Assembly: GCF_964355755.1 (NCBI RefSeq)
Contig: NC_092677.1
Coordinates: 23,964,101-24,028,100, forward strand
Direction of reading: 5' to 3'
From: Antedon mediterranea
Taxonomy: Eukaryota; Echinodermata; Crinoidea; Comatulida; Antedonidae
Length of the DNA: 64,000 nt
Below are positions 1,627 through 26,141 of this stretch, piece by piece. The position numbers and the translations under genes were made by a program. A model generated the notes under the pieces. It saw only the letters and a list, made by a program, of their open reading frames with translations, was not told the origin of the DNA and ran no database searches. Numbering within the stretch: the first letter of the stretch is position 1; every line of letters starts with the position of its first letter.

Positions 1627-1659
1627 ATGATTTTATCTTGTTGGGATGACTTCAATTAA
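1627..1659 (+). promoter_or_regulatory. Short upstream ORF overlapping the TRAF7-like start codon
   Basis: An ATG at 1627 with A at -3 opens a ten-codon frame that ends at TAA 1657-1659. This is past the presumed main start at 1646 and in a different frame. If the mRNA leader includes it, ribosomes starting at 1627 would bypass the main start, which is a known way to damp translation. Whether the transcript begins upstream of 1627 cannot be seen here. Confidence 0.4.
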
Positions 1660-4600
1660 CAGTAAAACTAGGCCTCTGGTCAAACAACCGTCAACACAGT
1701 TAAATTGTCCATTTTGCAAAAAACTTCTTTTAAATCCCGTAATCAGTACAGAATGTGGCCACACTTTTTGCCAAGCTTGCACTTGTAGGCCACTTGATAC
1801 CGGTGATAAAGCGAACCCGGTTGTGTGTCCGGTGGACGGAAAGCTGATAAATCCCGATAATCTTGTTGTTAACCGGTAAGACATTGTTAGGCCTAGCTTT
1901 TATAGGGAGTAGGTAGCAGTTAGTATAATTAGGCGGAGAAGAGGGTTTCTCCACACCCTGTTCTTTAATATGTAAGCAGGAAAAGGTTGTTTACATTTTG
2001 CAGTACTACTAAGGCCTAGCTAGCCTAGGGTAGGCCTACTTTACTACATCTAATAATGTAAAAAACATTTCAGTTTTTAGTACTGTAATTTAATTAATAA
2101 GCACATTTATTTTTAGAAGTTAACTGTAGGAGACTTATACTAGATAGGCCTAGCCTATATAATATACTACTACTAGCTTTATACTGTTAAACCTTTACAG
2201 GCTTGTTGATGACTTTTTGATTTGCATGCGTCTCTGACACAAGCATTTGCTTTCTTTGTTACTGTACGCCAGCATTATGCACTTGTCAATTGTATGACCC
2301 ACTATACAACCCCCGGGAGAGGTGCGTCATAGGTGCGTCATTTACAAATAATTACTGACGCAGGGGTGCATCAAAAAACATAGATGGTACGTCAAATCAA
2401 TGACCAACGGTGTGTCAATGTCCGTCACTTTACCACCCAAAATATCATAAAAAACATGGTCACAGTGCGTCAAAATGGGTCGGTCATCATGGTCACCTAA
2501 AGGTAAGTCACATTATTGACCCATGGGTGCATCATGGTATTCATAAGGTATGATCCACATGGGACAAATGACGCACCTCTCCCGGGGTTGTATAGTGGGT
2601 CATACAATTGACAATGTGCATTATTTAGAAAATAAATGTTATTTTGATTGATTGATTGAAACATCTTTAGTAAGGTACCATTGGAAAGATTAATAATATA
2701 TAAAAAATAAAATGGTCTTTCATCTCATGTTTAGCTTTAGTAATAATTGGCTGAGCTATTGCATTTTAATCATAAAAAAAAATATATATTTAAATATGTC
2801 ATTAATAATAATGTAGATTTTTATAGCACACCATATTCTCAAAAGTAAAAAGTAGAGAAAGTTGAGGATTAAATGGAGTTGAACAGACACGTTTTGAGAA
2901 TATATACAGTATTTTTATGCCAATTTTTTTGTTCAAACTTACAGAGCTATTGCTTCTCAGATTGACGATCTAGTAGTATACTGCCCCCATGGCATCACAC
3001 GTCTTACATCTCGTGACTATGTTCCGGAAGAAGGCGGTTGCCCGGTACAACTAACAATAGCTGACATAGAGGACCATGAGCAGACGTGCGAGTATGTTAA
3101 GTTAGGCTGCCCGAACAACGAAACCTTGTGTGGAACATTTAGAAAAAAAGAATTAGATGACCATGTTAAAGTGTGCCCTTATATGGCATGTAAATATGCA
3201 GAAAATGGTAAACATACAACATTTTACATCTCAATAATACTTACTTTTGATAGTTTGCACCATGTATGCTGGATTTTTAAAGAGGTGGATTTTACTATTA
3301 TTATTTGTAAATGACGCACCTATGACGCACCTCTCCCGGGGGTTGTATAGTGGGTCATACAATTGACAAGTGCATAATGCTGGCATAACAAAGAAAGCAA
3401 ATGCTTGTGTCAGAGACGCATGCAAATCAAAAAGTCATCAACAAGCCTGTAAAGGTTTAACAGTATAAAGCTAGTAGTAGTATATTATATAGGCTAGGCC
3501 TATCTAGTGTAAGTCTCCTACAGTTAACTTCTAAAAATAAATGTGCTTATTAAGTAAAATACAGTACTAAAAACTGAAATGTTTTTTCATTATTAGAAGT
3601 AGTAAAGTAGGCCTAGTACTAGTAGTAGTAGTACTGCAAAATGTAAACAACCTTCCTGCTTACATATTAAAGAACAGGGTGTGGAGAAACCCTCTTCTCC
3701 GCCTAATTATACTAACTGCTACCTACTCCTACTAACTCTGCTTGGTCTGCACTCAAACTTGACAAAAAAAATGTTATGTGTCATAGTATCACTACCATAT
3801 TTGGGCACATCACTACCATATTTGGGCACATCACTACCATATTTGGGCACATCACTACCATATTTGGGCACATCACTACCATATTTGGGCACATCACTAC
3901 CATATTTGGGCACATCACTACCATATTTGGGCACATCACTACCATATTTGGGCACATCACTACCATATTTGGGCACATCACTACCATATTTGGGTTCATC
4001 ACTACCATGTTTTGGCACATCACTACGATATTTGGGCACATCACTACCATATTTGGGCACATCACTACCATATTTGGGCACATCACATTAGTTTGATAGT
4101 GTAGACAGAACTTGAGAATGATCCCATTCACCGAGGGGGATAAAAGTACTAAGTGGTAATTTATATTATATAACAATGAAATCCTCCACACAAGTGCTGA
4201 TCAAATTATTATAAAGCATTTATTTATAATTTGTTTTCAAATATCACTGGACCGTTTAGAATTTATTCTGTGCCTGTTAATTTATATAAAATATTCCGAA
4301 CACAAATCCCTATAATTAAGTTAGTATGTATGTAAAAACATCGTCTGTCCGACACAAAAGCCAAAAAAATCCTTTTTTAGTAGAAAAGTTATACCATCGC
4401 TTTCAATCTTTAGCCACATCTTTTAACAATATGTCACTCTTAATAAAAAAATCACAACAAAATTTAGTAAATTATAAATGTGTTAGCTTTGTGGAATGTG
4501 TGTGCAGGTGTCACCCTACTATGACAGTGTTTTAAATACTTAACATTATTATTACTTGATTTCAGAACTTCATAGGCTTTGTTAAACATCAGTTGTATCA

Positions 4601-7600
4601 AATATATTGTAATTGTATGTTCATATGGGGGAGGTTTTTTTCACACAGACTATATTTAACCTTAACAATCATTTTATGACTCATTTCCATCCTGTTTTGT
4701 AGTTTTGCATCTGTTGATGATGGATGTGAAACTGTTCTAAAGCTCTGTCCACACTATCAAAAAAGTGTGAAATGCCCAAATATGGTAGTAATATGACATC
4801 ATCGTGTCCAAATATGGGCACATCAAGTTTTTTTGTCACATAAAGTTTGATAGTGTAGACAGAATGAATACCACAATTCCCTAAAAGTCAGATAATTCTT
4901 ACCTCTAACATTTGTTATTTTCTTTACATTAGGTTGTACATTTATAGGAGTCAATGACCAAATTCAAAATCACCAATCTGAGTGTAATTTTGCTAACAAA
5001 GAGCCAACATATGGACATTTGAAAGAAAATGTAAGTATATGTATGATACAATGTGCTCTAAATTACTCTATAATTTAAAACCCTTTTCACACCTGCAAAA
5101 ATTAACAACTTCTAACAAGTTGTAACCAGGTTTGCATAAGTGTAAAGACAATTTTGTGGAAAATCTCCCCAAGATTTTACAGGTTTTTTTTTAGATGTCC
5201 CAATTATTGGTATTAAACTGACCAATCATAGTAATCAAAATGCTTTCTTTGAGATTTCTCACGAAATTTCTATGAAAATGCAGTTTAAAAAATTAGGAAA
5301 TCACACCTGGTTAACATTGATGAGTTGTATTAACATTTTAATGTATATGTGAAAAGGGTATAAGGCCCATTTACACTGGGCGATAACGATCATAACTAAA
5401 CAACCTAAAACAAAAGAATTTTAAAAAGTTTTCATCCTAGAACTATAGGATTATCATCTATGCTGCCTTTGATGAAATTGATATTTCCACATGTCCAATC
5501 AAATGACGTCTTGGTTAGTAAGAGCAATAATGATACGATTTTATTGTTTTTATTGATCATGTTGTCATTTGATTGGATTTTCAAAAATATTATTTTTATC
5601 AAATACAGCATACATGATTATCCTATAGTTCTAGGATGAAAACTTTTTAAAATTCTTTTGTTTTAGCCAAGAAAAATGTATGTTTATCTATTTATCGTCA
5701 ATTGTTATTGGCCTTTATTGTAAACTCCTAGATTTGTTTGCTCTGGCATCTGTGACATTCCAAATCTTCCAGGCCAATTCTACAATACCAAGTCATTCAA
5801 TGTCCTACTATACATCAACTTATGTTCATACTTTAGCTTTTATAAGAAAGTAGATTTAAATATTTAAAACTACAACAAACCATCTGCTAAAACAAAATTA
5901 TATAGTATTTTTGTTTGTCAATCATGTAAACATAACTCATTTCGTTGCTATCATGCTAAATAAACTTATTGTAAATTATTGTTTTTATATACATTGGCTG
6001 CTAATAAAATTTTAACCGAGACACATAGATTCAACTTTTCCATTGCACTGCCTACATCATTAAATTTTTGGTTTCTTTTAATTTGATATCATTTTCAGAT
6101 GGAAAAGTTAAGTGATGAGAATACATGCTTAAAGAAGATGGTATCTGAGTTAAGTGAACGGGTATCAACTTTAGAAGAGGAAAGAAGAACAATGGCTGCT
6201 TTGTTGCAGAAGTGTTCAGAGTAAGTGACACTGTTTTTTGTTTTTCAATGTACTTAGCACTGGTCTCTGTTTTTTCACGCTGCTGCTCTAGCCAGCTACG
6301 TCCCATGAGCAGGGCCGTAGCCAGGATCTGTCAAGGGGGGGTTCGCACACCAAGTATTTGGGTCACCCCCCACCCCCATACCTACCCCCACCCCCATACC
6401 TACCCCCCCCCCCCCCCCGCTAGGGTGGGGCCTGAGGCGAAGCAAATTTTGTTAAATGACACCCCTTGGCCGGAAAAGACACTCTCATGCAGCATGCTAC
6501 CAATGAGTAAAACGATCGTACTTGGACTCATGGACTATTTAAACGATAACATTTGTTGCCGTATGTTAGATGCGCGTGCTCTGTGCGGAACCGCCGATTG
6601 TTTGATCATTTACTCGATACTGTATTTTGTTTTGCGTTCAAGTTCAATGCGAACGTACGTCTAGGAGAAGCCCCGAAAAAAGCACACTGGGTGAAGGCAA
6701 AAGCAATTCTTATTATAGCTCTATCTATAATATTTATTTACAGCAATTTGTTGAGGAAATTAAATATGCCAATGTAAATAGGTGATATTGATACATTTGA
6801 GTACGTATCAGCTGGTGGTCTAGAAAAAAATAATCGGATGCCATAATGTGAACTACAGTACATGATACCATAGATATTATAGTGTAAAATATTAATATTC
6901 ACTATAATCCTCTATGATACATTATACTTCATAGCCACACATAAATACTGATGTATGTCGGAAGGCTATATACTTTATGCATGCTGCCAGTGATCTAAAC
7001 AATTGGTACGCAGTTGTCTGGCGGTGTCCTTTGTACGAATCGTTTGTCCCCCAGCTTGCTGTGAGACGCGTCAATATCATGTTACATGCAAGGACCAAAC
7101 ATTTATTTTTCAGGTTAAAATCCGCAATTCATTTGCAATTCTTTACAGACTATATCGCTCGAAGTACGCTCATACAGGGAAGAAGGTACTGTATGAGTTA
7201 TTCCGAACGAGTTTACGAATTTTTTAATTTACGAACAACTTTTTGTACTGTGGGGCACATATTTGGACGATTTTCGGAGATGAGGGTGAGGTATTGGGCA
7301 TGTCGGGGATGGGGGTTCGCAGTCGGTTAAGGGGGTTCGCTGTAAAGGGGGGGTTCGCCCGAACCATAAAAACCCCCCCTGGCTACGGGCCTGATGAGGA
7401 CTACTCATTCATAAGCTAATGCAAGCAGCAGTTATAGTATCTAAGGCCGACAGTTTTGCGACTTTGTAAACTTGACTATAATTTATAGTCCCAGCTGCTG
7501 GACCCAAAAAACGTCTGGGAAAAGAGTCTATGAGGGCTTACGGTTGAACGATTTTGGATTCTCGCCCTTTGATTGGTTGAATGGGATGAATTTTCATGAA

Positions 7601-10600
7601 GTCACGTTGTCTCTAGAGGGTATTCAGTTGCATGCCAACAGGTTGAGGTCACACACACACATAGCACATTAAAATTCAAAATTGACCATTTTTAAATGGG
7701 CATGTGAATCTTAATTAAAAACTGTCTTTGATTTGTATGTATTTTTGCGATTAAAGGACATCTTTTTAATATTTAATCATAAATATCTGAAGATAGAACA
7801 ATGATTAATTTTAAAATGTCGAGCAGCGTTTTTTGTAAGAAATATTTTTTGTTTTAACTAGACAAGAGGACCAGTAATATTACATTTTTACTGGTCCTCC
7901 AGAATATTAATACTGTTTGTACCTGAACATTAACTTTAAAAAACAAAAATAGTACATAAAATCAATCTTGTTACAGTACAATTACAGTAGTTATTTAGAA
8001 TTGTCATGGCACTGTATGTTGCCATCTTCTGAAAGTCAACTGCTTAAGAGAAGATAACTGTATTTCTTCCACAAAACAAGTGGAAATAATGGTGCTTGGC
8101 TCATACAAAGATAAAACATTAACGGAAAAACAGATATCAAAACAATTCTATCCTAAAGTTATCAATATCATGTCAAAAATTCAAATCATCAAAAAAATAG
8201 AAAAATATTATTATCTACCTACTCTGCGGTTGTACTGGATGATACTGGAATTTATTTATGGTCATAACTTTTTTTTTATATGTGGCCAAAAGAAAGTTTC
8301 ATAGTGGTGCATAACATCTAGTAATCACCACAGTTCTGTTACCTAATATCAGGTACCTATTTGTATACCTGGGTGGAGAGAGGCAAACGTACTGTAAATA
8401 AATAAAGTGTCTTGCCTAAGGTTGCAAGCAATGCAACACACGTTGAATTTGAACTCATCAGAAGAACGTCCAACACAGTGAGGTTTTATTTAGTTTAATT
8501 AATAGTTTTTTATTTTTTTTTATTGATTAACTATTTGTATTCATTTTATTTATTAGTGGTTAATATTATTACAAATTCATTTCAGATCGATTGAGAATTT
8601 AGAAGAGCAACAGCTAAAATTGCAGAAAGTTGAGCTTGTACGCAGAGCTAGAAACAGTTCTACCACCTCCCTATCAAGTAAGAACAATTTGCAATACCGC
8701 CGGCCAATGACCAGTTAAATGCGTGGCAGACCAGTTAAATAGTCAAATAACAAGTCCGCTTGGCGAGTTAAAATTTTAGTAAACTCTAATGAAATATCAA
8801 TAATCTTACACAATTCACCTTGTCATGATTTCTTTACAAAATATACACCTGGACTTATGTAAACAGGATTGATTTTCTGTACTATTTTTGTTTTTAAAAA
8901 AAAGACGTAATAATATGCTTTAAGCCTATTATTATGTCTTTTTTTACATGATTTTTATATAGCATAGCTAACAATTTGTTATATTTTTCACCGCTCCCTT
9001 TGGCAGTTATAATAAAGAGAACGGAAGCATTAGGAAACAGTTACCATGCGGTAGCTTATACTAGTTTACTACGGCGGGAAAAATTAGTATTTGGACTGGG
9101 TACACGTACACCCCAAAACACGTCTGGGAAAAAAGACTATGAAAACGTTTGCTGATAAGTATTGAGATGCATGTAGGTGGTAGTTATAGTGAGATAAGCG
9201 GCATTTTTGTAAGACATATTTCTTGTTTAATTTAGGTATTGGCTCACGTAAAAGGAACTCTTCAGGTAGTCCAGACCATCTATCATCAATTTCCAGAGAG
9301 AAGTGGTTTCTTCCATTTGAATTCAAGTGTATAGGTACATTGAGGTAATATTATCATACGATATTCCATATTTTGTGTATATGATTCATATTGGTCCTTG
9401 AAAACCTGGAAAATCATTTTCAGCATCATATATTGTTTTACTATCATTTTATAAGGTCTTTTCACAAAGAGTTGTGGCAATATCACACTTAACAAGTCAG
9501 CGTTATTGCCGGTCTAAACCCATTTTCATAGATGGTAATATTGCAGCAATTTTACAATTTATTTACAATTTTAATGTTTTTTTAAATTTGGCCACAAATC
9601 CTTGTACACAGGAAAAATGCCAAAATGAACTTTTCAAAATTCAATCAATAAAAATAAATTCTGGACTTTTTAAAATTGAATTATTATGCAATAATAATAA
9701 ATTCTTGTTCTGTATTTTAAAAGTTTTTTTTTTCATACGCATCCAAGCCAATTACAGGATGGATAAACTATTTTATAATTATTATGCTTTTAAGTCTTAT
9801 TTGGGCTTGGGGAGTGGAGTTAAAAGAGTCGTGAGTTACAACCCTGGCACTAGGTCAGGAATGAACCTTGGGCCATTGGATTGAAAAGCAAACTTGTTAA
9901 CCACCAAGCTACAGCTCCACTACTTTTGCAATCCCCTAATATTGGCCCAAGGGCTTGTGGCGCAGTGTGTTGGACGTTTGACTACTGATCGTGAGATCGA
10001 GGTTCGAATCCAACTCTTGCCGCATTGCTTGTATCCTTAGGCAAGATACGTTACTTACGTTTGCCTCTCTCCACCCAGGTGTATAAATGGGAACCCGGTT
10101 AGATCAAGACACAACTTTGCGCTGATTACTAGCTGCATTATGGGAGTATGTTTCCATACGTGTTTGATCCAAAAAATGACTGGGGTAATAATGTTCAGCG
10201 CATTGAAGATGTTCGCAATTGGATGACAACAAATTACCTAAAGTTGAATGATGGAAAGACAGAGTTTATTATCGTCGGGTCTAAATGTAACATCTCCAAA
10301 ATCAACATCACACATATCAGAATCGGAAACTCTAACATCGCTCCCTCATCGGTGGTCCGGAATCTGGGAATCATGCTGGATAGTAATCTCACTATGGAAG
10401 CACAAATAACAACTGTATCCAAAGCAGCATGCATATCGATTAGGAACCTTGGTCGTATTCGCGGTAATCTTAACAAGAAAACAGCTGAATTGATTGTACA
10501 CTCATTTGTCACTTCTAAAATTGACATTGGTAATGCCTTGTTGTTTGGCATACCAAAATCTCAAATACAACATTTGCAGCGCTTGCAAAATATGGCAGCT

Positions 10601-13600
10601 AGAATTGTAACTTATACAAAATCAAACGCTCACATAACTCCTGTCCTGATGGATTTGCATTGGTTGCCTGTTCAACAACGTATTAAGTACAAACTTGCGT
10701 TATTTGTATTCAAGATCCTAAATGACAGTGCTCCTGCTTATTTATCTGACCTTGTGGATCGTTACGAATCATCCCGCAGAGGCCTACGATCATTGTCACA
10801 AAACCTTCTTCAAGAGCGTAGAGCGAAAAATCAGTGGGGTCAGAGATCTTTTTACGTTGCGGCCGCAAGTGTATGGAACAGCTTACCAGCAACAGTTAAA
10901 TGCTCAACTAGTCTAAACAGTTTCAAGACCAACCTAAAGATGTCGCTATTCGCTGATGTTCTCGCACGTTGTTAATGCACAAAGCGCCATGAGCGCCACA
11001 TGGGTGGAGGATACCGGCGCTATATAAGTTTTCATTTATTATTATTATTATTATTGAGAGCTTGCGTATATGTGCTATATAAGAATGAACTATTATTATT
11101 ATTATTATGAATGGACACTTTAACTGTAAGACCTTTTTTTATAGAGGACATGCTGGTAGCGTTCATTGTCTAGCAGTTAAGAGTAGAAACCTGTACAGTA
11201 GTGGTGATGACAACGTCATTAAAGTATGGAACATAGATCAGTTGAGTAAAGGCTGTGCAAAAACACTAAAAGGACACAAGGGAAAGGTAACTAAACTTGT
11301 AATTATGTGTTTACCTAGACTTTCCATAAGTCTGTATTTGATTTGTATTTTACCCTGAATAAATTGTTACATCTTGTAACAATTTGTACAGTACAGTTTC
11401 GTTCCTCCCACTGATGCCAGTCGCATCCAAGAGGCAGTCTTCTTTAGCATCCAAATATATGCTGGGTCCGACTGTTGAAGGGCTTCCTTGACTGGGTTAG
11501 CTTCTTAGCTTGACTAGGATCGCACTCAAAGAAGATTGCTTGATTTAATCTAGGGGTCACGATATTATGGTTTTCGGGCTTGTGCAAAGAGCATTCGTTT
11601 TGTTAATGAGGTATTTGGTGCTCGGGAGATATGGGCTATGGACTTTAGGTAGTGAACCCATAGTCTTTAGTGGAGTTGCACCGACGATATTTTCAACATC
11701 TTTATTTGAGAACAGGAGACTGAAAATTCCATCTTCCATAGATTGCTCTTGGTGCCCGGTAACCTTCGCTTCTTTACATTTACAGGCCTGCAACGATTTA
11801 TTACATGTTTCCATACACGTATAACGTAAATCTTCTAATAGTAACCCACACTCTAATAGTAACCCCCTTCTAATAGTAACCCACCTATATAAGTCAATCT
11901 AATAATCTATAATCTATAATACTACTCTAATAGTCACCCATGGGGATTACTATTAGAGTCACAAAACTTATGATGCAGCCGTATTTTGAAAATAAGGAGA
12001 TAATGCATGTTGATCTCGGGAGTGGGGCAGTGTTTTTGAGTATATTATTATTTTCAGGTGCCTAATTTAAGATTAGTAATAGTAACGCCATTACTCTAAC
12101 AGTAACCCCCCTTCTAATAGTAACCCCCCTTCTAATAGTAACCCACCCTAAAAAACAATCAAAGAATAATAACACAGGGTTACAATTAGAAGATTTATGG
12201 TATGCGAACCCTGATAAATCTGGAAGAGAAAACGTAGTTGCGTGCTATTTGCTTATTATGATTGGTCAATTAAATACCAGGGCAAAATACATGCACGCGC
12301 ACAGTATCAACTCTGAACATTTTAAAACAAAAACAGGCCTCTTATCGGTGTGTTTTTCACACAAAATTGTACAAACATGTTGTTACATTTTGCAGATGTT
12401 TCAATTTTTGTCTGGTAAAATATAGACTTTTGTAAAACATGTACAGAATCAATTTGCAGACTGCAAGCATCAGAATGATGTAGGTTAAAATACCATATTT
12501 GGCTTTATGAACCCATTTGAACAAAATTCAGGAAATACTCTCTTCCCATACTGCCTTGTTCCATTAAAAAGCCTGTTTAAAATTAAGAAAACCACTTCAC
12601 TTTACAGGAATGATTTTTCATTTTGAAAAAAAGGTAAACATGTTTACAAATTTTAAGCTTTACATGAAATAATTAGTTGTAAGTTTTTACTTAATAAAAT
12701 TGTTTATAATATAATATATATAATAAAATTACTCCAATATTTAGAGTAAAGTCATGATTCAAAGTTTCGATCTTTATTGAATTACAGTATCATCAGGTAT
12801 TATTATTTATATTATTTTCTCTTTTTAGGTGACGGTATTGATAGATGGAGGGGATTTTCTTTTCAGTGCGAGCATAGATAAAAGCATTAGAAAATGGTCT
12901 TACGATGAACAGGCTATGGTAGAAAAATTAGCAAGAAAGGTAGAGCTACATAACTTGCTTATCAATATTGGTCATTATTTTGTACGACAGGCCTTGTCTT
13001 TTGAGGCGTGGGAATACAATCACTCACCTAACGCAATCCTAAATTCCATTGAGGTGTGCCACTTAAAGGCCAGGTGCGGGCAAAAAATTTCTATTGATCA
13101 TACATTCCAATAATTATCGATCTATAGTTTCTCCTATGTTTCATAATTTTTGAGATTTTATTTGTGTTACACGAGCTTGTTGAAAATAAGCACTTTCTTA
13201 TCAGTGGGGGGATAGTTCAAATTACACAGTAAAATCTCTATTCTTTTGTACACAAATTTTGTAAATAGAGAGGCATTTTAAAAAGCTATGAAAAATAAAC
13301 GGTGTGGTAAAAAATGATATCAGATGATAAAATATATGTAATATAACTTGAATTTTACATTTCTGGTATTTTTACTTCAGACTTTTATTTTCATGCTATA
13401 GCAAAAATTATCCACCGTATATCCACCATCTTTTTTCACCTTCTAGGGAGTCACCAGACATGTTATTACATTAGGTTAAACTACCTAACTACTGAAAAAA
13501 AGTCTCTGGTTTTTATGGCCAAATTTTGTATTTGACCATATTAAGGGAAATTCATGTTTTTTCGTCTTGATTTCTGTTACAAATACATGAACCAGATATT

Positions 13601-16600
13601 ATATTTAAAATTCATGCCTGTACCTGAGATTTAAATTTGGTAAACGTCTGTACACCAAGATACAAACAGCACACCTGAATGTGTGTGGAAGTGTGTTTCA
13701 ATTTCAAAAGGCAATTCTTGTGAATGTGGTAACAATCCTTTTATCATGCTTATGGTGGATAGTTTGTAGGGCTCTTACAGTAACTCTGAATGCTTCTCAA
13801 TTGTCAAGAATCTTTATAATCCGTTTATTTTATTAAATCTGTTCAGAATATATTTTTCAGTATATATTCCCTATAAAAGTATATTTATTTATTTATTTAT
13901 TTTTATTTATTCAATTTTCTGCCATATACAATACAAAGAAGACAAAGCAATTATAAAAGGGGGCAAGGAACGACCAAACAGGTGCTAAACACCTATGCTA
14001 GTTAGTCAACCCAGAACATAGAAAGCACAGAAAGAAAGAGATAAATCCATAAATAATATTACGGTCTACAATTAAAGCATCTACAAGAAAGCGACCAACT
14101 ACACACATTTTCAATATCAAAATTATATTATTATATGTATTATTTGTGTAATTTTTATGTAATACAGTATATTGATTTTATTTTACTTTATAACATATCT
14201 TAGTGTATCCATTTGTTTGTTGATTTTATAAATAACAATTTTTTAGGACGCCCACTCAGAAGAAATTACAGCATTAGCCATAACAGCAAAGTATGTGTTT
14301 TCATCTTCCTATGCAGAAATTAAGGTAAAATAACATATTTATTAAATTGTAGTTGCACAACCTTATGCAATGACAAGCAATATAAGCATGATAAATAACA
14401 CAACTTCTTTACTGATTGAATTTTGCATCAGAGCAGTTAGGTAACACCAATGAACGCTCACTGGTTAAGCCCAATGGCCTCAGACTAAAGCTTGGTTGCC
14501 ACTACCGACGCAATGCATGGACGTAACGCAACGTAAGTAATTTGACCAATCACAAGCGATGGATTATTCGAACAATGGCTTGTCATTGGTCAACTCGCTT
14601 GTGTTGCGCGTGTTGCGTCTCTAGTGGGAACCACGCTTTAAGGGGGCCTCAGATTCCGAATACATTGAAGTAAAAATAGGTTCAGGTTGCCTTTTGTTTT
14701 TTCACAATTTGAGAAATGTTGACTAACATGTGAACATCAGAAATAGAAATTTATGGTATTTACAATAAATCTGGACTTTAAACAGGCATTAAAATATGAA
14801 AAAAAATGCTAAAAACGCTTCCCTTAGATTGCCAAAACGTCTTCTGCTTTATGCCACTGCATCACCAACATCATCAACTCATACATAATTTGTAACAAAA
14901 ATTCTCTTTTTATTTTGAAAGATTTGGAGTCATGAGAAATTAGAAGCTGTTAAAACCCTATCTGGTCTTCATCATTGGGTTAGAGCATTAACTTTGGATG
15001 ATAGTAAGGTTTGTATAATGTGTAAATTATCAGGATAAGGAAAACACTCGTCAACAACAAATCGTTTTCATCAATGGTGCCACCTATGGCGACATCCTGA
15101 AGAGGATTAGTTTAGGAACTCGGAATTAAAAGACTTAGTTTTATCCGGATGTTTACTACCGACATGTATACGCCCCTTTCGTAGGTAAATTATGGTTTTT
15201 TAAAAGCACTAAAACTACATGTGCAGTATGTTAGAGTTAATGGTTGATGGCTTTATACATTGCAGCTCTTGGTGAGAAAAGCATAGAAAAATTATGTTGT
15301 CTGGACAGATAGATTTATGGTTTATTGTGTATGACTCTTGATAGAACTATTAAGCTAAAAATCTATGATACAAAAAATGTTGTCACTGAACATTAAAAAC
15401 ATACAAAATAAAGTTTATATTCCTGCAATGTTGAGTTTCAATTTATGCTCAGAGTGTGGTTTAACAAATACTGATTGTGACGGGATTTGAACCCATGCCT
15501 TTGGATTGAGTGCCACAACTTCAATAAGACTAAAAACTTCAGTGGTAGCATGATATTTGTTTTTTGCACCGCGCCTTTAGGCAGTTATTTTCAATAGGAT
15601 GGAAGCATTAGGAATCTGTATCACAGGGAAGCTTATGTTTACTACAGCTGAAAAAATTGGTATTTGGAAACTTGAACTGGGCATGCGCAAACCCCAAATT
15701 AGTTTGGGAGAAGAGATTCTATAAGATGTATGCAGACAGTAGTCTGTGTAAGACTTGTTCAATATACAATGTTTGGTCAAAACAATCCTTCCTCTACGGT
15801 AAATATGTTTGGTGAATGGTGTGTATAGATGAAGATTATTTGTGAGTATGTTTGTTGGCGGCTGGGAAGTTAGAATTTTTGTTTACTGGAATGTTGGGGT
15901 ATGTGAGTCACTATGGCCTTAGAGAGTAACGCCTATACCCTGGAATATGTACAGTGAACATTATTCACGTTATTACTGTAGTTTAGTGTAGGACTTGATT
16001 GTTCCGTTCAGACTATATTTACGTTGCACAAAATGTTTACTAGTGTACTGATTGTTAAACAAAAATAATTGATTGATCATTATTTCTTAATTATGAAATA
16101 GAATATCAATTAAAAAAAAGCATTTAATGAAGAAAGAACGGTAATTAAAACGGTTGAGTGACATTTTTTGAAAGAAATGTTTCTTGTTTTTATAGGAAAT
16201 GCTGTACAGTGGGTCTCACAATGCTATACACGTCTGGAGTTCAGATGGCGATTTTAACCTGAAGAGAAAATTGGAGCATACTTATGGTTCCGTCTATTCC
16301 ATGGCAATAACTGATCTTTACTTAATTATTGGTAAGCAATACATACTTCATGATGTCATAAAACTAAACAAACTAAATAAAACATATACAGTATTATACT
16401 GTGTGCAATGATAGAACGCTGACAAATAATGTGAAATAATGATTTAAAGATGTATTGTCCCCGCCCCCAAACAATTTATTAGTAAAATTGTTTGTTGTTA
16501 AATATGCTATTTTAATATCACATAATAGTTATTCATTCTGACCTAAAATCAGTGAAAAAAAAAAATTTTACTGAAAAAACTGTAATTTAAACAAAAATAG

Positions 16601-19600
16601 TCACATTTGTGTTAGCCAATGGGTTTTTTATTTGATAATCATTTTGGCTATTAACAAAAATTGGGTAAGTTTTATACTAGTTATTTAAACTTATAGTCAG
16701 TGCATCTATCATTGCTTTATGTTTATACTGAAAGAATGAGATTAAATAAGATTTAAGATTGAATGTCACACTTCCCTTGTTTAAGTATTGTTAAAAATTG
16801 GCTTCCAAAAAAACCCCTGCATATAGGATGTCTTTCTGAAAATTTCGAGGTTGCACATTTGAAAACTAACCTGTAATGTGCACTGTCTATCTATTTACTC
16901 GGCTGAATTCAGAGCGCTGGAGATCTTTTTTTAGTTCTTGCCTTCGATATTCACATGGATGTGTATAAAACAACAAATTTTGCATTTTTTAATTGATAGA
17001 ATATTTTTATTAGTTAAGTAGACCTCTTGATGTATTCTAAATATTCCACTCCTAAATATTCATTGTATTTTGATAGGAACAATTATACTTAAAACTTTTA
17101 ATGATCACTTGAATATGAAATGCTCTCTTTTTCTTAGGTACATACAATCAGAATATACAATTATATGATGTTATTACTCACAAACATCTTAGTGACTTGA
17201 CAGCCCATATTGGTACAATTACAGACCTTCATCTCTCTCCTTGCAATATGTTTCTAGTGTCAACATCATTTGATTCCGTTGTCAAGGTAACAACAAACAA
17301 TGATAACACGGACTCTTACTTTTCATCATGGCTTTCACGTTGCATGCCTTTCTTTCACCTCCCACACCATTTGTATGACTCTATATATGTCGGTTTTATT
17401 TTGTAGGTACTTATAATCGAAATTTGCAAATTTTTGATCTGGTGTCCCACCAGCATGTGAAGTCACTTCGGGGACATGTTGGTATTGTCACTGATTTAGG
17501 CTTGTCCCCAGCCAAACAATTTCTACTTTCTGGGTCATATGACTGTACAATTCAGGTACAGTATATGAAAAGCAATAACAATCACCTTAATATGCACTAT
17601 ACTACTGCATTACTAATAATACGGTGGCTGGACCATGATTCCCACTAAAGCGTGGTTCCCACTAGCGACGCAACACAAGGATGTAACGCAACGCAAGTGA
17701 ATTGACCAATCACAATCGATGACTTATTCGCTTGTGATTGCTAACTGTCTATAACTTCGCTTGTCATTGGTTAAAACGCTTGCGTTGCGTTTACGTCCTT
17801 GCGTTACATTCTAGTGGGAACCAAGCTTAAGATGCAATGCAAGGCTGTAAACGCAACACAAGCAAGTTGACCAATCACAATTTACAGACCATATTACTTG
17901 CTTGTGATGTTGGTGCGTTGAAAAGCCTTTAGCGTATGTCACCCATCCCATGTCATTTACAAGTTGTCTTTTCTGTTGACTGACGTTTGGAGGATATAAG
18001 AGACAATTGTGAATGTAAATATATTGGCGTAGGTGGAGTGTGGAACTAGTTGTAGAAAAAAGAATAAAATTATAAATGTGAAAAAACTTCGCTTGTGATT
18101 GGTCAAATTACTCGTGTTGCGCTTACAAGTAACATCCTTGTGTTGCATCCTAATGGGAACCAAGCCTTAATCCAAGGCATAACAATACAATATAATTCAG
18201 CAAGTTGAATGGATTAGCAGCTGACCAATTCATTGCAGAGGCGCTGTACACATCGTAAATCTATGTATACAGTATGGCCAGAACTTATTATTTATGCTAC
18301 AAATACTACTGCAACGTGTATTGCAACTGCTACCAACACATGTACTAGTGCTGTTTCCATAACTGTTTCTGCAGAGTAGTTTTATAATACTACTTCTGCT
18401 GCAGCAACACAACTATTCACTGCCACTATCACTGCACTTTAGCCACCGCTACTGTCACATACATTAATACTGTAATGTCACTGATAATTCTGCAAGTAAT
18501 GCTACTGCAACTTTTAATAATAATAATAATAATAATAATAAGATTTATACAGCGCACATATCACTAAAGTGCTCAAGACGCTTGTGAAAAACCATGAAAA
18601 CATATAAACCTTAAACCTAAATACAATTGATAAATTTGACAAAAACCGAAAAAAATAAACAAGATCAATCTTTTACTGTATTATTGCTGTCATTTTCGCA
18701 ACTAATGCCTAGTCCTACTTTCTCTGCTACAGTTACATTGATAATTGCATTGTAGCAACTAATTCCTGCTCCTCATCATGCTTCACATGCTAGCTGAAAC
18801 CAATTATATTGTTATTGCTGCTACAGTCACATGGCATTATGTATATACATGTGGGATGCCACAATGAAAGCACTACTTCTTCAATCATGTAATATTAAGC
18901 AACTACAACTAAACACAGGAAAGACTGGGTTGGATGGGACTTATTAAAACAAATGGAAATCAAATCTAACTTGCAAGTCTTCCTTTCTTTGATGATAGTA
19001 AAATACATTTTAAATAATTTACAGAAACAAACAAACTTAATACATTTTACTAATACACAAACACTGTAAATGAATGCAAAATCTTGACATGTTTGTGCTG
19101 CTAACAAGATGTAAAAAAAAAAGGAAGCTATTTATATAGCCTGGGTTCGAGGCGGATTTTTGTTTTAATGTTAGTAAAAAGATAAATATTTTGGCACATG
19201 TGGCGTTTCATACGTATACTACTTGTCAGACTATGATGTTTTGGTATTGCATGTTAATTTACCTTACTTTATGTATCTTGCAGCATTTTTTTTTTATATT
19301 TAATATTCTGTAAAGGTTTATCATTATAAACTTTCTAAAATTGTATGAAACATTTTGATTGGGAAGAAATTGACATAGATAAACTTTATTTGTCAAAAAT
19401 GTAACATTTTTGAAAACTTGTTAATATATTTTTTTTACAGATTTGGAATCTTGAAAACTTTCTGCCACTACAAACATTAAGTCGGCATGAGGGTGGTGTT
19501 AATGCGCTAGCATTGAAGAATGGCTTATTATTCACTGGGTCAGATGACAAAGAAATTAAGGTAGGCCTCAATATTCTTGTTTTGTAAAACAAAATAACAC

Positions 19601-20837
19601 ATACAATAAAATTTCCAAAATGCAGCCTTATTTAAAAAAAGAGTTTCTTCAGTCCAAAACAAATAACAAATTCTACAACTATGGATGATGTAGTTCTTTT
19701 GATGACTGCATAACAGTTGGTTTCCATAGATTGCACTTGCAGCTTGTGCTGCAGAATTTACAGTTAGTTTCTCATTGTTGAATCTGGTTGCTCAATATGC
19801 TATACAAATTTGAATGCTTTGAAATGGAAATTTCCAATTTCGCCATTTCAGTTATTTGAAAAGTGAAAAAACATTGGATCTATACTTCTATGTGTCCTTG
19901 GATGTCTCATGAAAATAATAATGAATGAATATATGTATTTTTGAATTGGGAGATTATTTTCATTATTTTTTAATTCAACAATTGGCTCCACCTTGTTATA
20001 CCGTAGTATGTACAGTAATGTAATAGTCAATCTTTCAAAGAATGAAATATTCTCCCCTAGACTTGCTCCAAGTCTGTAGTTATTTCGAGGCTTTTCGATG
20101 TTTGTCCGGAGTTTACAAGCTCAAGTAGTATGCGTATGAAATGAAATGTGCCAAAATATTGATTTTTTACTATTATTAAGTCAAAACTTTCTCCCCATTC
20201 AACTCATAACATTCATTATTTGTATAACATACAAAGTATATTTTGGGGTAGATATAATCCCTAGATTAAAATTCTATCTTTTGATACTTTTGTGTAGATC
20301 ATCTTATGGCTTATTGCCATGTGTAAAGGATTGCCACCTTAAAGATGTATTGTCCCCAAAAACATGAAAAATGAACAATTAATGAAATCAGACTTTAAAT
20401 AGGCCATTTTGCAGTTTGAATAAATGTATTCACTTCTGTAAAAAAAAACAATAAAAAATTATTTCTGTTATATAAAGACAAATTAAATGTTTAATTTTAA
20501 CCAAAAACTAAGAAATATATATAATAAAAAAACGTATTATGCTACTGTGTATGGTATTGCCCAAGGCTTCTGAATCGCTTACAGATTTGTTTTTGGGTCT
20601 AGGTTAGGCCAAACTGTTTTCAGTTTTTTTTATTTTTTAGTTTAGCGATTTGCATGTAGCATAACCTTTATAAATCATATGCATACAATCGAGATGCCTT
20701 TTGAAACATAACCTACTTTAAATTTACTGTTTCATCTTCACTCAACATTTTTAATCAACATAAACTTTTTTCCGCAGATTTTCAAATATTTCAAACTAAT
20801 GACACACTCTGGCTATGGCAATCATATATCTGTATAG
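1646..20837 (+). CDS. TRAF7: TRAF7-type E3 ubiquitin ligase (RING, TRAF zinc fingers, coiled coil, WD40)
   Basis: Fourteen coding exons join in frame with GT-AG junctions to 598 codons: 1646-1875, 2945-3207, 4933-5030, 6099-6220, 8586-8677, 9236-9344, 11145-11286, 12829-12939, 14247-14324, 14922-15008, 16196-16331, 17138-17286 (or 17407-17555), 19441-19560, 20778-20837 (stop TAG). Residues 21-64 form a RING finger (C21, C24, C37, H39, C42, C45, then C61PVD64, with the Asp ending also seen in vertebrate TRAF7). Exons 2-3 carry TRAF-type zinc fingers (CPNN, CPYMACKY, GCTFIG). Exons 4-5 are a heptad-like coiled coil. Exons 6-14 begin with KCIGTLRGH and form WD40 blades. TRAF7 is a ubiquitin ligase that works with MEKK3 in JNK/p38 and NF-kB signalling; that role is transferred from the family. 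The start at 1646 is the first in-frame ATG after TGA at 1628. The protein lacks the long Ser-rich N-terminus of vertebrate TRAF7 (about 670 aa). Confidence 0.9.
1909..2352. repeat. Left arm of an inverted duplication in TRAF7 intron 1
   Basis: This roughly 440-bp stretch recurs in reverse complement at 3299-3727 with high similarity. Shared landmarks include TAATTAGGCGGAGAAGAGGG, the ACTATACAACCCCCGGGAGA block and GATGACTTTTTGATTTGCAT. The arms begin about 34 bp after the exon 1 donor and flank exon 2. Confidence 0.9.
2285..2614. mobile_element. Foldback MITE, about 330 bp
   Basis: The ends are long inverted repeats: CTTGTCAATTGTATGACCCA ... CCCCGGGAGAGGTGCGTCAT on the left, and the reverse complement of the same block at 2567-2614. 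The inside holds many diverged GTGCGTCA/TGACGCAC words. Its left end is also copied within the inverted-duplication arm at 3305-3375, so the element pre-dates or was part of that duplication. Confidence 0.75.
3299..3727. repeat. Right arm of the inverted duplication around TRAF7 exon 2
   Basis: This is the reverse-complement partner of 1909-2352, lying in intron 2 and starting about 90 bp after the exon 2 donor. Both arms show small private indels (for example in the TAGTAG runs), so the duplication is not brand new but remains close. Confidence 0.9.
3736..4110. repeat. 21-bp minisatellite expanded inside a MITE
   Basis: From 3783 to 4087 the unit CATCACTACCATATTTGGGCA repeats about 14 times, mostly perfectly. 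One stretch of variants (TTGGGTTCATC, CATGTTTTGGCA, CTACGATA) lies near 3985-4035. The array is bounded by GCACTCAAACTTGACAAAAA on the left and TTTGATAGTGTAGACAGAA on the right. These are the ends of the MITE seen uninflated at 4744-4863, so the satellite is an internal expansion of one copy. Long frames through it in several phases are repeat artefacts. Confidence 0.9.
4744..4863. mobile_element. Short MITE, founder-like copy of the 21-bp array element
   Basis: The ends are inverted: CTGTCCACACTATCAAA at the left and TTTGATAGTGTAGACAG at the right. The inside has two CCCAAATATGG(G) words, one in each orientation, matching the 21-bp unit of the array 700 bp upstream. Confidence 0.75.
5088..5359. 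mobile_element. MITE with 13-bp terminal inverted repeats
   Basis: AACCCTTTTCACA at the left end is matched by TGTGAAAAGGGT at the right end, with further inverted similarity inside (ACCAGGT / ACCTGGT). It lies in intron 3 of the TRAF7-like gene. Confidence 0.6.
5407..5664. mobile_element. Foldback MITE with about 57-bp inverted ends
   Basis: The left end AAAACAAAAGAATTTTAAAA runs on through CCTAGAACTATAGGATTATC to TATGCTG. It is matched by its near-perfect reverse complement at about 5606-5664. No coding capacity is seen. It sits in intron 3 of the TRAF7-like gene. Confidence 0.85.
6310..7393. mobile_element. Non-autonomous hAT-like element
   Basis: The ends CAGGGCCGTAGCCAGG and CCTGGCTACGGGCCTG are inverted repeats of hAT type. 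ATGAG flanks both sides (6305-6309 and 7394-7398). A poly-C tract lies at 6401-6418. The interior (about 6950-7260) resembles the interior of the larger hAT element at 26663-29212, for example GGCGGTRTCCYTTTGTACGA and TACNGTGGGGCAC, so both belong to one lineage. It begins about 90 bp after TRAF7 exon 4. The open frames inside look fortuitous. Confidence 0.75.
8309..8484 (-). mobile_element. SINE fragment (reverse orientation)
   Basis: Read on the minus strand it matches the tRNA-headed SINE at 9951: GTGTTGGACGTTC, a degraded box B (AGTTCAAATTCAA), CTTAGGCAAGAC, then TTTGCCTCTCTCCACCCAGG and TGATTACTAG. Confidence 0.7.
9800..9920 (-). mobile_element. tRNA-derived SINE-like fragment
   Basis: The minus strand reads GGAGCTGTAGCTTGGTGGTT (box A-like) and, about 33 nt later, GGTTCATTCC (box B-like). 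It cannot fold as an intact tRNA with an acceptor stem, so it is more likely a second SINE family than a tRNA gene. Confidence 0.45.
9951..11055 (+). mobile_element. Chimeric tRNA-SINE / CR1-like LINE retroposon
   Basis: The 5' 250 bp are a tRNA-headed SINE: box A-like TGGCGCAGTGTGTTGG, box B GGTTCGAATCC, and body CTCTCTCCACCCAGGTGTAT. At about 10200 it switches into an uninterrupted reverse-transcriptase C-terminal frame running to the stop at 10975. Recognisable blocks are DVRNWMTTNYLKLNDGKTEF, VVRNLGIMLDSNL, HWLPVQQRIKYKLALFVFK and SVWNSLP. The 3' tail is GGCGCTATATAAG followed by (ATT)n, typical of CR1-like LINEs. A second shorter tail with (ATT)n follows at 11056-11107. It sits in intron 6 of the TRAF7-like gene. 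Confidence 0.8.
11395..11820. other. Unclassified intronic segment with an 85-codon minus-strand frame
   Basis: The 11557-11814 minus frame has slightly protein-like composition, with a cysteine cluster near its N-terminus, but I recognise no domain and no splice signals. The segment is richer in GC than its surroundings. It may be a decayed transposon coding fragment. Confidence 0.25.
11827..12197. mobile_element. MITE with clustered subterminal TAGTAACCC motifs
   Basis: AAATCTTCTAATAGTAACCC at the left end is matched by the reverse complement GGGTTACAATTAGAAGATTT at the right. CTAATAGTAACCC-like words are repeated at least seven times near the two ends. Such arrays are typical transposase-binding subterminal repeats. 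No coding capacity is seen. Confidence 0.65.
13020..13640. repeat. Dispersed repeat, copy 1
   Basis: The stretch from ATTGATCATACATTCCAATA through CACCGTATATCCACCATC and TTCTAGGGAGTCACCAGACA to ATTCATGCCTGTACCTGAG recurs in reverse complement at 21700-21870 (partial) and 21940-22870. It is noncoding and unclassified. It begins within the read-through of exon 8. Confidence 0.75.
14486..14641. mobile_element. Foldback element (GTTCCCACTAG family)
   Basis: Inverted ends AAAGCTTGGTTGCCACTA and TAGTGGGAACCACGCTTT enclose CAATCACAAGCGA / TCATTGGTCAACTCGCTTG inverted words. Other copies are at 17646-18170, 37627-38470 and 45651-46081. Confidence 0.8.
15470..15735. repeat. Dispersed repeat with a tRNA box B-like remnant
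   Basis: The minus strand at 15478-15512 reads ATGGGTTCAAATCCCGTCAC, a box B motif without a box A. The following 15570-15730 segment (GGCAGTTAT ... GGAAGCATTAGGAA ... AGTTTGGGAGAAGAG) resembles 9000-9145. It is a decayed retroposon or MITE and shows no intact tRNA. Confidence 0.45.
16441..17110. repeat. TTAA-MITE end and AT-rich intron
   Basis: TTAAAGATGTATTGTCCCCG at 16443 marks one end of the TTAA-flanked MITE family whose complete copy is at 23083-23632. No matching other end is obvious here. The rest of intron 11 up to exon 12a shows nothing else I can name. Confidence 0.5.
17138..17286 (+). CDS. TRAF7: Alternative WD40 exon 12a of the TRAF7-like gene
   Basis: This 149-nt exon is bounded by tttcttag and gtaaca. 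It enters in phase 1 (completing the Gly codon begun in exon 11) and leaves in phase 0. It encodes GTYNQNIQLYDVITHKHL and continues to DSVVK, a WD40 blade equivalent to the CGTYENLIHVWD blade of vertebrate TRAF7. It is homologous over its whole length to the next exon, and by eye about 23 of 50 residues are identical. It splices cleanly to exon 13, which begins IWNLENF. Confidence 0.85.
17407..17555 (+). CDS. TRAF7: Alternative WD40 exon 12b, mutually exclusive with 12a
   Basis: This second 149-nt exon, bounded by ttttgtag and gtacag, lies 120 nt after exon 12a. It has the same phases and encodes GTYNRNLQIFDLVSHQHV through DCTIQ. Since 149 is not a multiple of 3, using both exons shifts the frame and meets TGA at the 18th codon of 12b. 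Either exon alone keeps the frame from exon 11 to exon 13. Both copies retain WD40 landmark residues, so neither looks like a pseudo-exon. Confidence 0.85.
17646..18170. mobile_element. Two adjacent foldback elements (GTTCCCACTAG family)
   Basis: The first copy is 17646-17829: AAAGCGTGGTTCCCACTAG at the left and CTAGTGGGAACCAAGCTT at the right, with CAATCACAATCGA / CTTGTCATTGGTTAAAACG inside. A more degraded copy follows to about 18170 and ends CCTAATGGGAACCAAGC. Confidence 0.8.
18240..18880. repeat. Degenerate ACTGCT-rich low-complexity tract with a LINE/SINE tail
   Basis: Imperfect ACTGCTAC / CTGCTACAGT words are scattered through the tract, as from an old trinucleotide expansion. At 18516-18600, (AAT)n followed by AGATTTATACAGCGCACATA is the reversed 3' tail of a CR1-type retroposon. 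Confidence 0.5.
20337..20470. repeat. TTAA-MITE fragment
   Basis: TTAAAGATGTATTGTCCCCA followed by AAATAGGCCATTTTGCAG matches the family of 23083-23632. The right end is not evident. Confidence 0.5.
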
Positions 20838-23901: not shown

Positions 23902-24029
23902 TAAATTAAAGCTATTGTTAGGCCTAACCATGTCTATTGTTATGTCCGTGCTTGAGGTACGCCATGTACGACATTTTGTCTCAATATTTCTGGTAGTCCT
24001 ATATATTTTGTAAGGCTTCTTCTTTTAGA

Positions 24030-26141
24030 ATGGCAGATAACGATGAATTAACGAGTAAGCGTCGTCTGATGGAAGATCTTGCAAATTCAGTTATCGGCTT
24101 ATGCACAGTTAGTAGACAAACTAAAATATCATATTTTAGGATAGAACAGGAGATACAAAATAATGTAGCCAAACAACTGTTATGGTGGCCACAACACAAC
24201 TATCAAACTGGAAGCATGTTTGAAGGAATGCATGTAAACGTCTGTAGTGACCACGATATGATGATGAGAAAGCGAATATTTCCAATCGTCTTATGGGAGT
24301 CGCAAACACCAGGCCTAGAAGACCAAACCAGTTCGGTGGGATATGCTGTTGCCGAGCAGACTGAACCGGTGTTTTTACGGCTTAAAGTTGAAGACAAAGA
24401 CGGCCTAAACATAGATATTCAACGTCTGGTTAATAACGATGGGTATTTAAAGACGGATGATTTCATAGAATATAATCGTACATCCGTGAATGAATATTCT
24501 ATAGACGGATCTGAAAAACATGGTCCCTCTGTATCAAGTAAAGTTAGAACAGCATCAAATGGAAAAGGAAACATCATTTTGGTTGATAATGTATTTTGCT
24601 TGAAATGTAAGTCATGGCCGTCTTTTGCAAACAATTTCTTTACTAGAGAAAGACCAAACTGGCCGTCGCCAGACCTGGTAGAAACGGTACGGCAAGTGGA
24701 ATGCCTTGTAGTCGCCGTTGGACATCAAAACAGTCGCCATATTGATACTGAATGGAGATTATCTTTCTCTTTAGCTGAAAGAGAACTCATCCAGAAAATT
24801 CCTAGAATTTACGCCGAATGTATGTATGCACTAAAAGCAGTAAAATCCAAGTATATTGTATATGGTGAACTTGACAAACCGACACCTTTCTGTTCTTATT
24901 TTATAAAGACTGCTTGTTTATGGGTATGTGAAAGGTCTTCAGATGAACATAAGACTGTCATGGATGTAAGTAGAAAAGTGATAGATTGGTTAATCAATTC
25001 CTACAAACAAAGAAATTTAAAGCACTATTTTATTCCCCAACAAAATTTGATAGAACATCTGGCAACAGAACGTTGTGACGGCGTAATAGACCAACTGGAA
25101 TCAGTAAAGAAAGATCTCTGGACAATGGTGATGTCGAGTCTTCCTATAGCTTCATTTGTTCGTACTGATGTCATCAATTCTATGTGTGATGCATTAGGAA
25201 TCCCCAGAGTAAACACACCAGATGACTTTTCTGCTTTGGAAACCAATCTCTTGGGGCATTCTAGAGCGACAGAAAAAATTAAACTAGCCATTGAACAATT
25301 GGAACCAGGCAGTTCTACGCATAGTACATACAGATATTTAGAGAATTCAATGTGGGCGGCCAAAGATTTTCCTTCTTTGTTAAGAGTTTTCGACGCTGTT
25401 GCCAACACACAAGAGACTAGTTCGGAGATTATGAAGATCCCAGAAGACATAATGAGGCCTATTGTTGACAATATTGAAACCATAGTATTGGAAGGTTACG
25501 GACCCTTATTCAAACAACGGTTGTATAGATTTTTAGGAGATGTATACACATACTTACTGATATATTTCCGCAGATTTGGAATCAAACAACTCGAACCATA
25601 CAGATCACTCTATTGCAAAAAGCCATTGCAGTATTACGAATTGGGCATTGACATGGTATACCCCGACAAATGGAGTGATAATCAAATTGGTGGACGAGCC
25701 GTTCTAGTGATATACCACTATCTAATGGCTAACTACAGCGAGCTGAAAGAGAAACTCAAAGTATTATTACCCATAAGTCTTGCTGTTAACAAAGATAAAG
25801 TTATGATGAATCGGCAGATTAATGTGGAGATATCTACTCCGTTTCCTCTTGCGATGAATGCCTGGGAAGTTGCTGATGAACTGTTACACCACTTTGCCAA
25901 AATTCAACATAGAATTCTACTTCATCCCATAGCCCTTGCCTTGTACATAAATGCAAGACTTTCACTTGTAGAAGGAAAGACAGAAAACGCACGTTTGATG
26001 GTGCAGGAAATGACGACATGCGTAAATACAATTCTCAGGCATGAGGTGAAAGCGACTACTGTGTTATTAATACATATTGTACAGAGTTTAATAGGCTTAT
26101 TAGAAGTCATGAGGAAAATTCATTATTTGAGAATACACTAG
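24030..26141 (+). CDS. Mab-21 domain / cGAS-like receptor nucleotidyltransferase, single exon
   Basis: This uninterrupted 703-codon frame encodes a Mab-21-type nucleotidyltransferase. The signature follows the family order: G61-S62 (GSMFEGMHV), the metal-binding pair D74-H-D76 in SDHDMM, and the third acidic residue D129 in GLNIDIQRLV. The C-terminal Mab-21 helical half includes LKCKSWPSFANNFFTRERPN, WRLSFSLAERELI and KTACLWVCE near 195-310. A further 340 or so mostly helical residues follow, longer than compact cGAS-like proteins. Family members sense nucleic acid or other ligands and make cyclic dinucleotides that activate STING. With all three acidic residues present, catalysis is plausible here, unlike many Mab-21 relatives. 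I see no obvious zinc-ribbon thumb as in vertebrate cGAS. The lack of introns suggests either an old intronless family or retroposition. A poly(A)-type ATTAAA lies shortly after the stop. Confidence 0.85.
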   Translation: MADNDELTSKRRLMEDLANSVIGLCTVSRQTKISYFRIEQEIQNNVAKQLLWWPQHNYQTGSMFEGMHVNVCSDHDMMMRKRIFPIVLWESQTPGLEDQTSSVGYAVAEQTEPVFLRLKVEDKDGLNIDIQRLVNNDGYLKTDDFIEYNRTSVNEYSIDGSEKHGPSVSSKVRTASNGKGNIILVDNVFCLKCKSWPSFANNFFTRERPNWPSPDLVETVRQVECLVVAVGHQNSRHIDTEWRLSFSLAERELIQKIPRIYAECMYALKAVKSKYIVYGELDKPTPFCSYFIKTACLWVCERSSDEHKTVMDVSRKVIDWLINSYKQRNLKHYFIPQQNLIEHLATERCDGVIDQLESVKKDLWTMVMSSLPIASFVRTDVINSMCDALGIPRVNTPDDFSALETNLLGHSRATEKIKLAIEQLEPGSSTHSTYRYLENSMWAAKDFPSLLRVFDAVANTQETSSEIMKIPEDIMRPIVDNIETIVLEGYGPLFKQRLYRFLGDVYTYLLIYFRRFGIKQLEPYRSLYCKKPLQYYELGIDMVYPDKWSDNQIGGRAVLVIYHYLMANYSELKEKLKVLLPISLAVNKDKVMMNRQINVEISTPFPLAMNAWEVADELLHHFAKIQHRILLHPIALALYINARLSLVEGKTENARLMVQEMTTCVNTILRHEVKATTVLLIHIVQSLIGLLEVMRKIHYLRIH

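Follow-up and report, generated by a model that had tools for sequence, protein, structure and literature searches.

Can one TRAF7-like gene make two versions of its WD40 propeller by choosing between two adjacent and similar exons, or is one of these exons a relic? The question is raised by a gene within the window, by which we mean the whole stretch of 64,000 nucleotides that was analysed (positions 23964101-24028100 of contig C8, in an assembly of 354,431,138 bases and 18 contigs). We refer to the two exons as A and B, and on the evidence set out below they are very probably a tandem exon duplication that is spliced mutually exclusively in a divergent TRAF7-like gene.

Structure of the window gene

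Exons were placed with a human TRAF7 sequence as a guide, together with splice sites and phase. The human reference was a provisional sequence, and it was used for every TRAF7 identity figure given here. The coding exons, apart from the pair and its immediate neighbors, are listed below with the basis of each assignment.

1646-1875, plus strand: first coding exon, RING finger (exon placement, Pfam)
2945-3207, plus strand: exon with the TRAF-type zinc finger (exon placement, Pfam, zinc-finger search)
4933-5030, plus strand: exon with the end of the zinc-finger region (exon placement)
6099-6220, plus strand: coiled-coil-like exon (exon placement; coiled coil predicted from sequence)
8586-8677, plus strand: exon with the coiled-coil end or linker (exon placement)
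9236-9344, plus strand: linker exon preceding the first WD40 repeat (phase and splice-site search; resembles the paralogue peptide; whole frame open)
11145-11286, plus strand: exon with WD40 repeats 1-2 (TRAF7 guide, splice sites, phase)
12829-12939, plus strand: exon with WD40 repeats 2-3 (TRAF7 guide, splice sites, phase)
14247-14324, plus strand: exon with WD40 repeat 3 (TRAF7 guide, phase)
14922-15008, plus strand: exon with WD40 repeats 3-4 (TRAF7 guide, phase)
20778-20837, plus strand: last coding exon with the stop codon (phase; whole frame open)

Pfam recognized a RING finger (PF13923, 31.4 bits) and a TRAF zinc finger (PF02176, 28.1 bits) in the predicted protein, both with a cut-off of 27, and the zinc-ligand pattern of the RING is visible in the sequence of this predicted ligase. 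A stretch that appears coiled-coil-like lies between the zinc finger and the WD40 repeats. The WD40 model (PF00400, cut-off 27) scored 102.7 bits for the isoform with A and 112.8 bits for the isoform with B; Pfam reports five WD40 stretches in each, and by eye seven repeat units align with those of the provisional TRAF7. A query of the PDB with isoform B listed 24 sequences with E values of 1e-20 or lower, none of them from a molecule named TRAF7. In a genome-wide scan for Pfam WD40 matches exon by exon, in which 150 of 660 candidates were scored, the window's exons were absent from the scored list. The corresponding zf-TRAF scan gave 16 places, which include the paralogue described below; the window gene and its contig-1 relative (also below) are absent from them.

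Exons A and B are homologous and share length and phase

The pair and its surroundings are arranged as follows.

16196-16331, plus strand: common upstream exon, 136 nt, ending in phase 1
17138-17286, plus strand: exon A, alternative version 1, 149 nt; open frame, AG/GT borders, homology with B and with the paralogue's single copy; covers the last part of repeat 5 plus most of WD40 repeat 6
17287-17406, plus strand: A-B intron, 120 nt, with one TGCATG at 17341
17407-17555, plus strand: exon B, alternative version 2, 149 nt; open frame, AG/GT borders, homology with A and with the paralogue's copy
19441-19560, plus strand: common downstream exon, 120 nt, starting in phase 0

Exons A and B are adjacent, homologous and internal, with the same length (149 nt each) and the same phase (1 in, 0 out). 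They agree at 80 of 149 nucleotides and at 23 of 50 amino acids; none of 100,000 residue shuffles gave 23 or more identities, and the maximum was 13. The donor of A matches the consensus at 7 of 9 positions and that of B at 6 of 9, where the 13 scored donors of the gene span 6 to 8, and the splice sites of both exons score within the spread seen at the other sites scored in the gene. The preliminary description had given the same coordinates, 149-nt lengths, 120-nt intron and phases 1 to 0, with which our re-reading agrees throughout, and its claim that the two exons are homologous is borne out by the amino acid identity and the shuffles.

It had also assigned many of the differences to surface positions, which we treat as conjecture, and had placed both exons in the same blade, which does not hold. 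The exons encode the end of repeat 5 followed by most of repeat 6, contributing 34 of the 37 residues in the Pfam match of the latter (residues 17-53). Judged from this match, the exon pair straddles two WD40 blades, and the swapped stretch presumably comprises, by the usual WD40 topology, the outer strands of blade 5 and the inner strands of blade 6. Extended by the beginning of the following exon, A scored 31.2 bits and B 39.2 bits against the Pfam WD40 model (cut-off 27). Two WD40 landmarks that B keeps, GH and SGS, read AH and STS in A, which retains the D of the repeat.

The reading frame admits exactly one of the two exons

With A alone or B alone, the coding sequence is open from end to end, 598 amino acids from the ATG at 1646 to a stop codon in the last exon (20778-20837). 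When both are included, translation ends at codon 18 of B, and two exon junctions lie over 50 nt beyond this stop. Skipping of both shifts the frame, so that a stop falls within the first 14 nt of the exon that begins at 19441; a single junction follows this stop, 106 nt further on. Since early stops result from double inclusion and from double skipping alike, a full-length protein requires exactly one of A and B. The codon-18 stop had been predicted beforehand, as had the rule that only one exon can be used productively; both predictions stand, and double skipping ends early as well. Messages that carry an early stop and a junction downstream of it are generally subject to nonsense-mediated decay. 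If this applies to the present gene, faulty messages with A plus B or with neither would be removed, and protein would come from one-exon messages only.

The frame also permits a different kind of alternative use, in which A continues into its intron, for example as a different 3' end, and stops at the acceptor of B. The frame from A stays open for 39 codons more, up to a TAG at 17404-17406. Yet A and B are both internal exons with matching phases and such an end would truncate the propeller, and we consider this reading scarcely credible.

The window gene is a divergent relative of TRAF7

A search of the genome with the provisional human TRAF7 WD40 region found a locus on contig 1 (20.075-20.078 Mb) with five pieces 62-76% identical and a best E of 9.4e-36, whereas the best piece of the window gene reached only 4.8e-5. 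In the region of the exon pair, 42 of 52 residues of the contig-1 gene are identical to the provisional human TRAF7, as against 15 of 50 for A, 18 of 50 for B and 19 of 50 for the contig-8 paralogue. The contig-1 gene thus looks like the true TRAF7 of this genome. Its upstream border of the exon concerned is read through without an intron, and one copy of the exon is shown.

The paralogue is a second TRAF7-like gene on contig 8, at 13.52-13.53 Mb (L007 and L008, C8:13518000-13537999). When the zinc-finger region was used to search outside the window gene, this place (C8:13.52 Mb) gave a match 39% identical with an E of 6e-17, the next being 4.9e-5. Like the window gene, the paralogue has matches to the same domains and the same borders around a single 149-nt exon (L008:3517-3665), and over five propeller blocks the two genes are identical at 113 of 183 amino acids. 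Unlike the window gene, it has one copy of the 149-nt exon, no second copy being found in the 20 kb around it, and its linker runs into the first WD40 repeat without an intervening intron.

By these comparisons, the window gene forms a divergent TRAF7-like pair with the gene at 13.52 Mb, and neither is TRAF7 itself. We rejected the window gene as the TRAF7 orthologue, since contig 1 holds the far closer match. The preliminary label of TRAF7-like is therefore right for the make-up of RING, TRAF zinc finger and WD40 repeats and wrong if read as TRAF7 itself. For the earlier interpretation as a whole, the frame-enforced alternative exons are supported by the sequence, the codon constraint and the paralogue; the TRAF7 identity is not. 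A review describes TRAF7 as a RING, a TRAF zinc finger, a coiled coil and seven WD40 repeats (PMC12801879), a set of domains that the window gene resembles, although the sequences are far apart. A lamprey study states that each TRAF member is single-copy in sea urchins (PMC7179693). The preliminary placement of the gene among echinoderms is tentative; a search of the assembly for mitochondrial COX1, intended to place the phylum, gave no match.

Both exons look selected as protein

By codon position (first, second, third), A and B agree at 28, 36 and 17 of 50, A and the paralogue exon at 32, 36 and 24, and B and the paralogue exon at 33, 44 and 16. Because third positions agree at only 17 of 50 and second positions at 36 of 50, both A and B look to be under protein-level selection. 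The five other propeller blocks of the window gene and the paralogue (183 codons; the set omits the linker, the final exon, the exon that begins at 14922 and portions of two more) agree at 122, 144 and 70 codon positions and at 113 residues, which by this measure is the same protein-selection pattern as in the exon pair. Neutral evolution was simulated 4,000 times with uniform substitution and no indels, and 2,831 runs had a third-position identity of 14-20 of 50. Both frames were open in 38 of these 2,831, and amino acid identity never exceeded 12, compared with the 23 observed. The NG86 method gave dN of 0.46, 0.35 and 0.30 for the three exon pairs, with dS undefined for A-B and for B and the paralogue and 27 for A and the paralogue; codon-position counts were used in place of dN/dS.

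When A, B and the paralogue exon were compared residue by residue, 19 positions were the same in all three and 11 differed in all, while 9 were changed in A only, 7 in B only and 4 in the paralogue only. Second codon positions were changed in A only at 10 of 50 sites and in B only at 2, and A may for this reason have drifted further. For the order of duplication, three topologies of five sequences (one of them provisional) gave AU values of 0.70, 0.39 and 0.30, all within the 95% set, and the best joins A with B. The raw identities (23 of 50 for A and B, 26 for A and the paralogue, 28 for B and the paralogue) hint in the opposite direction, at an old duplication.

These data bear on whether one of the two exons (A would be the likelier) is a dying copy that is rarely or never used, in which case the gene would make one protein. 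Several observations count against exclusive splicing: A lost two landmarks, has the weaker WD40 match and carries the larger number of unique second-position changes, and the paralogue and the contig-1 TRAF7 each show one copy; all but the first were also weighed in favor of a dying copy. Nevertheless A has an open frame, exactly 149 nt and two ordinary splice sites, and the 26 residues (A) and 28 residues (B) shared with the paralogue exon compare with a mean of 4.6 common residues in the simulated neutral copies. We judge a dying copy to be improbable, and mutually exclusive use of both exons remains our preferred reading.

How the choice between A and B might be made

Under mutually exclusive splicing, a tandem exon duplication would have given A and B, both fitting one slot of 149 nt with phase 1 in and phase 0 out. 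The cell would pick A or B by tissue or stage, and the choice would swap about 50 propeller residues, tuning the partner binding of the presumed ligase. One weak candidate for the choice itself is a pairing of 14 nt that would cover the donor of A, with B then the default. Its arms are as follows.

16487-16500, plus strand: intronic 14-mer, candidate masking arm, perfect complement of the donor region of A
17288-17301, plus strand: donor-side arm, nucleotides +2 to +15 of the intron after exon A

When the two introns were dinucleotide-shuffled 1,500 times, a complement of at least 14 arose twice; for the other 12 donors tested the complement with their own preceding intron was at most 9. Local folding of 951 nt gave the pairing base-pair probabilities of 0.59 to 0.999. 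Among the partners open to the upstream arm within the 13 kb searched, this one ranks first (-16.6 kcal/mol, the next being -14.1). The donor of A itself has a stronger partner at 22550 (-18.0 kcal/mol), beyond the last coding exon; the donor of B has one of -20.8 at 13600, and other donors have random-looking partners that are even stronger. Accessibility of the donor of A was 0.325, not below that of the other donors (0.023-0.605). We regard the pairing as a weak lead to a switch mechanism, such as exclusive splicing by docking and selector structures, in which intron sites would have to pair competitively and in a conserved manner. In its full form, an RNA-structural switch would have the 14-mer, about 640 nt before A, hide the donor of A and leave B as the default; opening of the structure would swap the stretch of the propeller that picks partners, and a double choice or none would destroy the message and so set output. 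This scheme is speculative and probably incorrect as a whole.

Other routes to a choice were looked at. Long-range duplexes between introns, in 60-nt windows, showed no excess over shuffled controls, and pairing of the A-B intron with the downstream intron was rejected, the longest complement being 9 and matched by 1,129 of 1,500 shuffles. Steric exclusion, which we took to require a branch point within about 50 nt of the donor, is not clearly supported for an A-B intron of 120 nt, in which predicted branch-point motif matches lie 32, 39, 51, 71 and 112 nt from the donor. Given the motifs at 51 and 71 nt, nothing clearly steric bars A-to-B splicing; the frame alone does. The TGCATG at 17341, 55 nt past the donor of A, is presumably an RBFOX-type motif, and an RBFOX-type factor at that place would favor A over B. 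The evidence from this motif is weak, because it is present in 84 of 2,000 shuffles, was chosen from nine motifs inspected, and does not occur in the introns on either side of the paralogue's exon. Positions 1-30000 of the window gave no Rfam match.

The pair could also act as an off switch, in which A-B joining or double skipping is used deliberately to make messages that are destroyed, lowering output and not yielding two proteins. Double inclusion and double skipping do each give early stops with junctions downstream, and the 14-nt complement overlaps the donor of A. A pure poison exon, however, need not remain protein-like, yet A and B agree at 36 of 50 second codon positions, and we think an off switch very unlikely compared with a choice between two proteins.

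Relation to known splicing switches

A swap of this kind has a precedent in the vertebrate CORO6 gene (coronin-1D), where mutually exclusive homologous exons 5a and 5b are described (PMC3203266). As here, these exons swap almost a whole WD repeat and start within a strand of the preceding blade, and the exon of the fish gene is closer to one of the two copies, which we liken to the present pair (PMC3203266). Unlike here, CORO6 encodes an unrelated WD40 protein of vertebrates that is not a ubiquitin ligase; its pair was found by gene comparison and, at that date, was without experimental analysis (PMC3203266). Among human mutually exclusive clusters, 377 of 629 (60%) are reported as frame-incompatible, and these are validated by RNA-seq (PMC5740500), whereas the present pair is a prediction from sequence. 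The type of event is thus familiar, in both its frame incompatibility and its swap of a WD repeat (PMC5740500, PMC3203266).

For TRAF7, the texts as available report a skipped exon in mouse colitis (PMC10334696), the use of exon 19 in H2A.B.3-mutant mice (PMC6357441) and exon 5 under TDP-43 (PMC8983780), and in those texts none is presented as an exclusive pair. In the open-access literature, as far as its text was available, we found no prior description of an exclusive exon pair in TRAF7 or a TRAF7-like gene. This type of splicing switch being well known, the candidate novelty is its occurrence in a divergent TRAF7-like gene. If splicing proceeds as proposed, one gene would give two propeller versions in a presumed RING ligase, and the single-version paralogue and the window gene would form a natural pair for asking how the swap of a WD40 repeat affects partner choice.

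Repeats and neighboring frames in the window

The intron after B carries a short inverted-repeat element at 17638-17840, with a related stretch to 18169. It has at least 99 matches in the genome (40 scored of 1,474 candidates), and because near-full copies are 93-98% identical, it appears to be a recent MITE-like family; similar stretches lie near 14494-14550, 38086-38145 and 45654-45713. Another intron of the gene holds a 21-bp tandem repeat at 3788-4086 (14.2 copies, 96% matches), in which several frames are open. Open frames at 337-1103 and 10133-10972 resemble, by eye, retroelement reverse transcriptase, and the latter had no Pfam match at 0.001. Just downstream of the gene, at 24027-26138, lies an open frame of 704 amino acids with Mab-21 nucleotidyltransferase and Mab-21 C-terminal domains.
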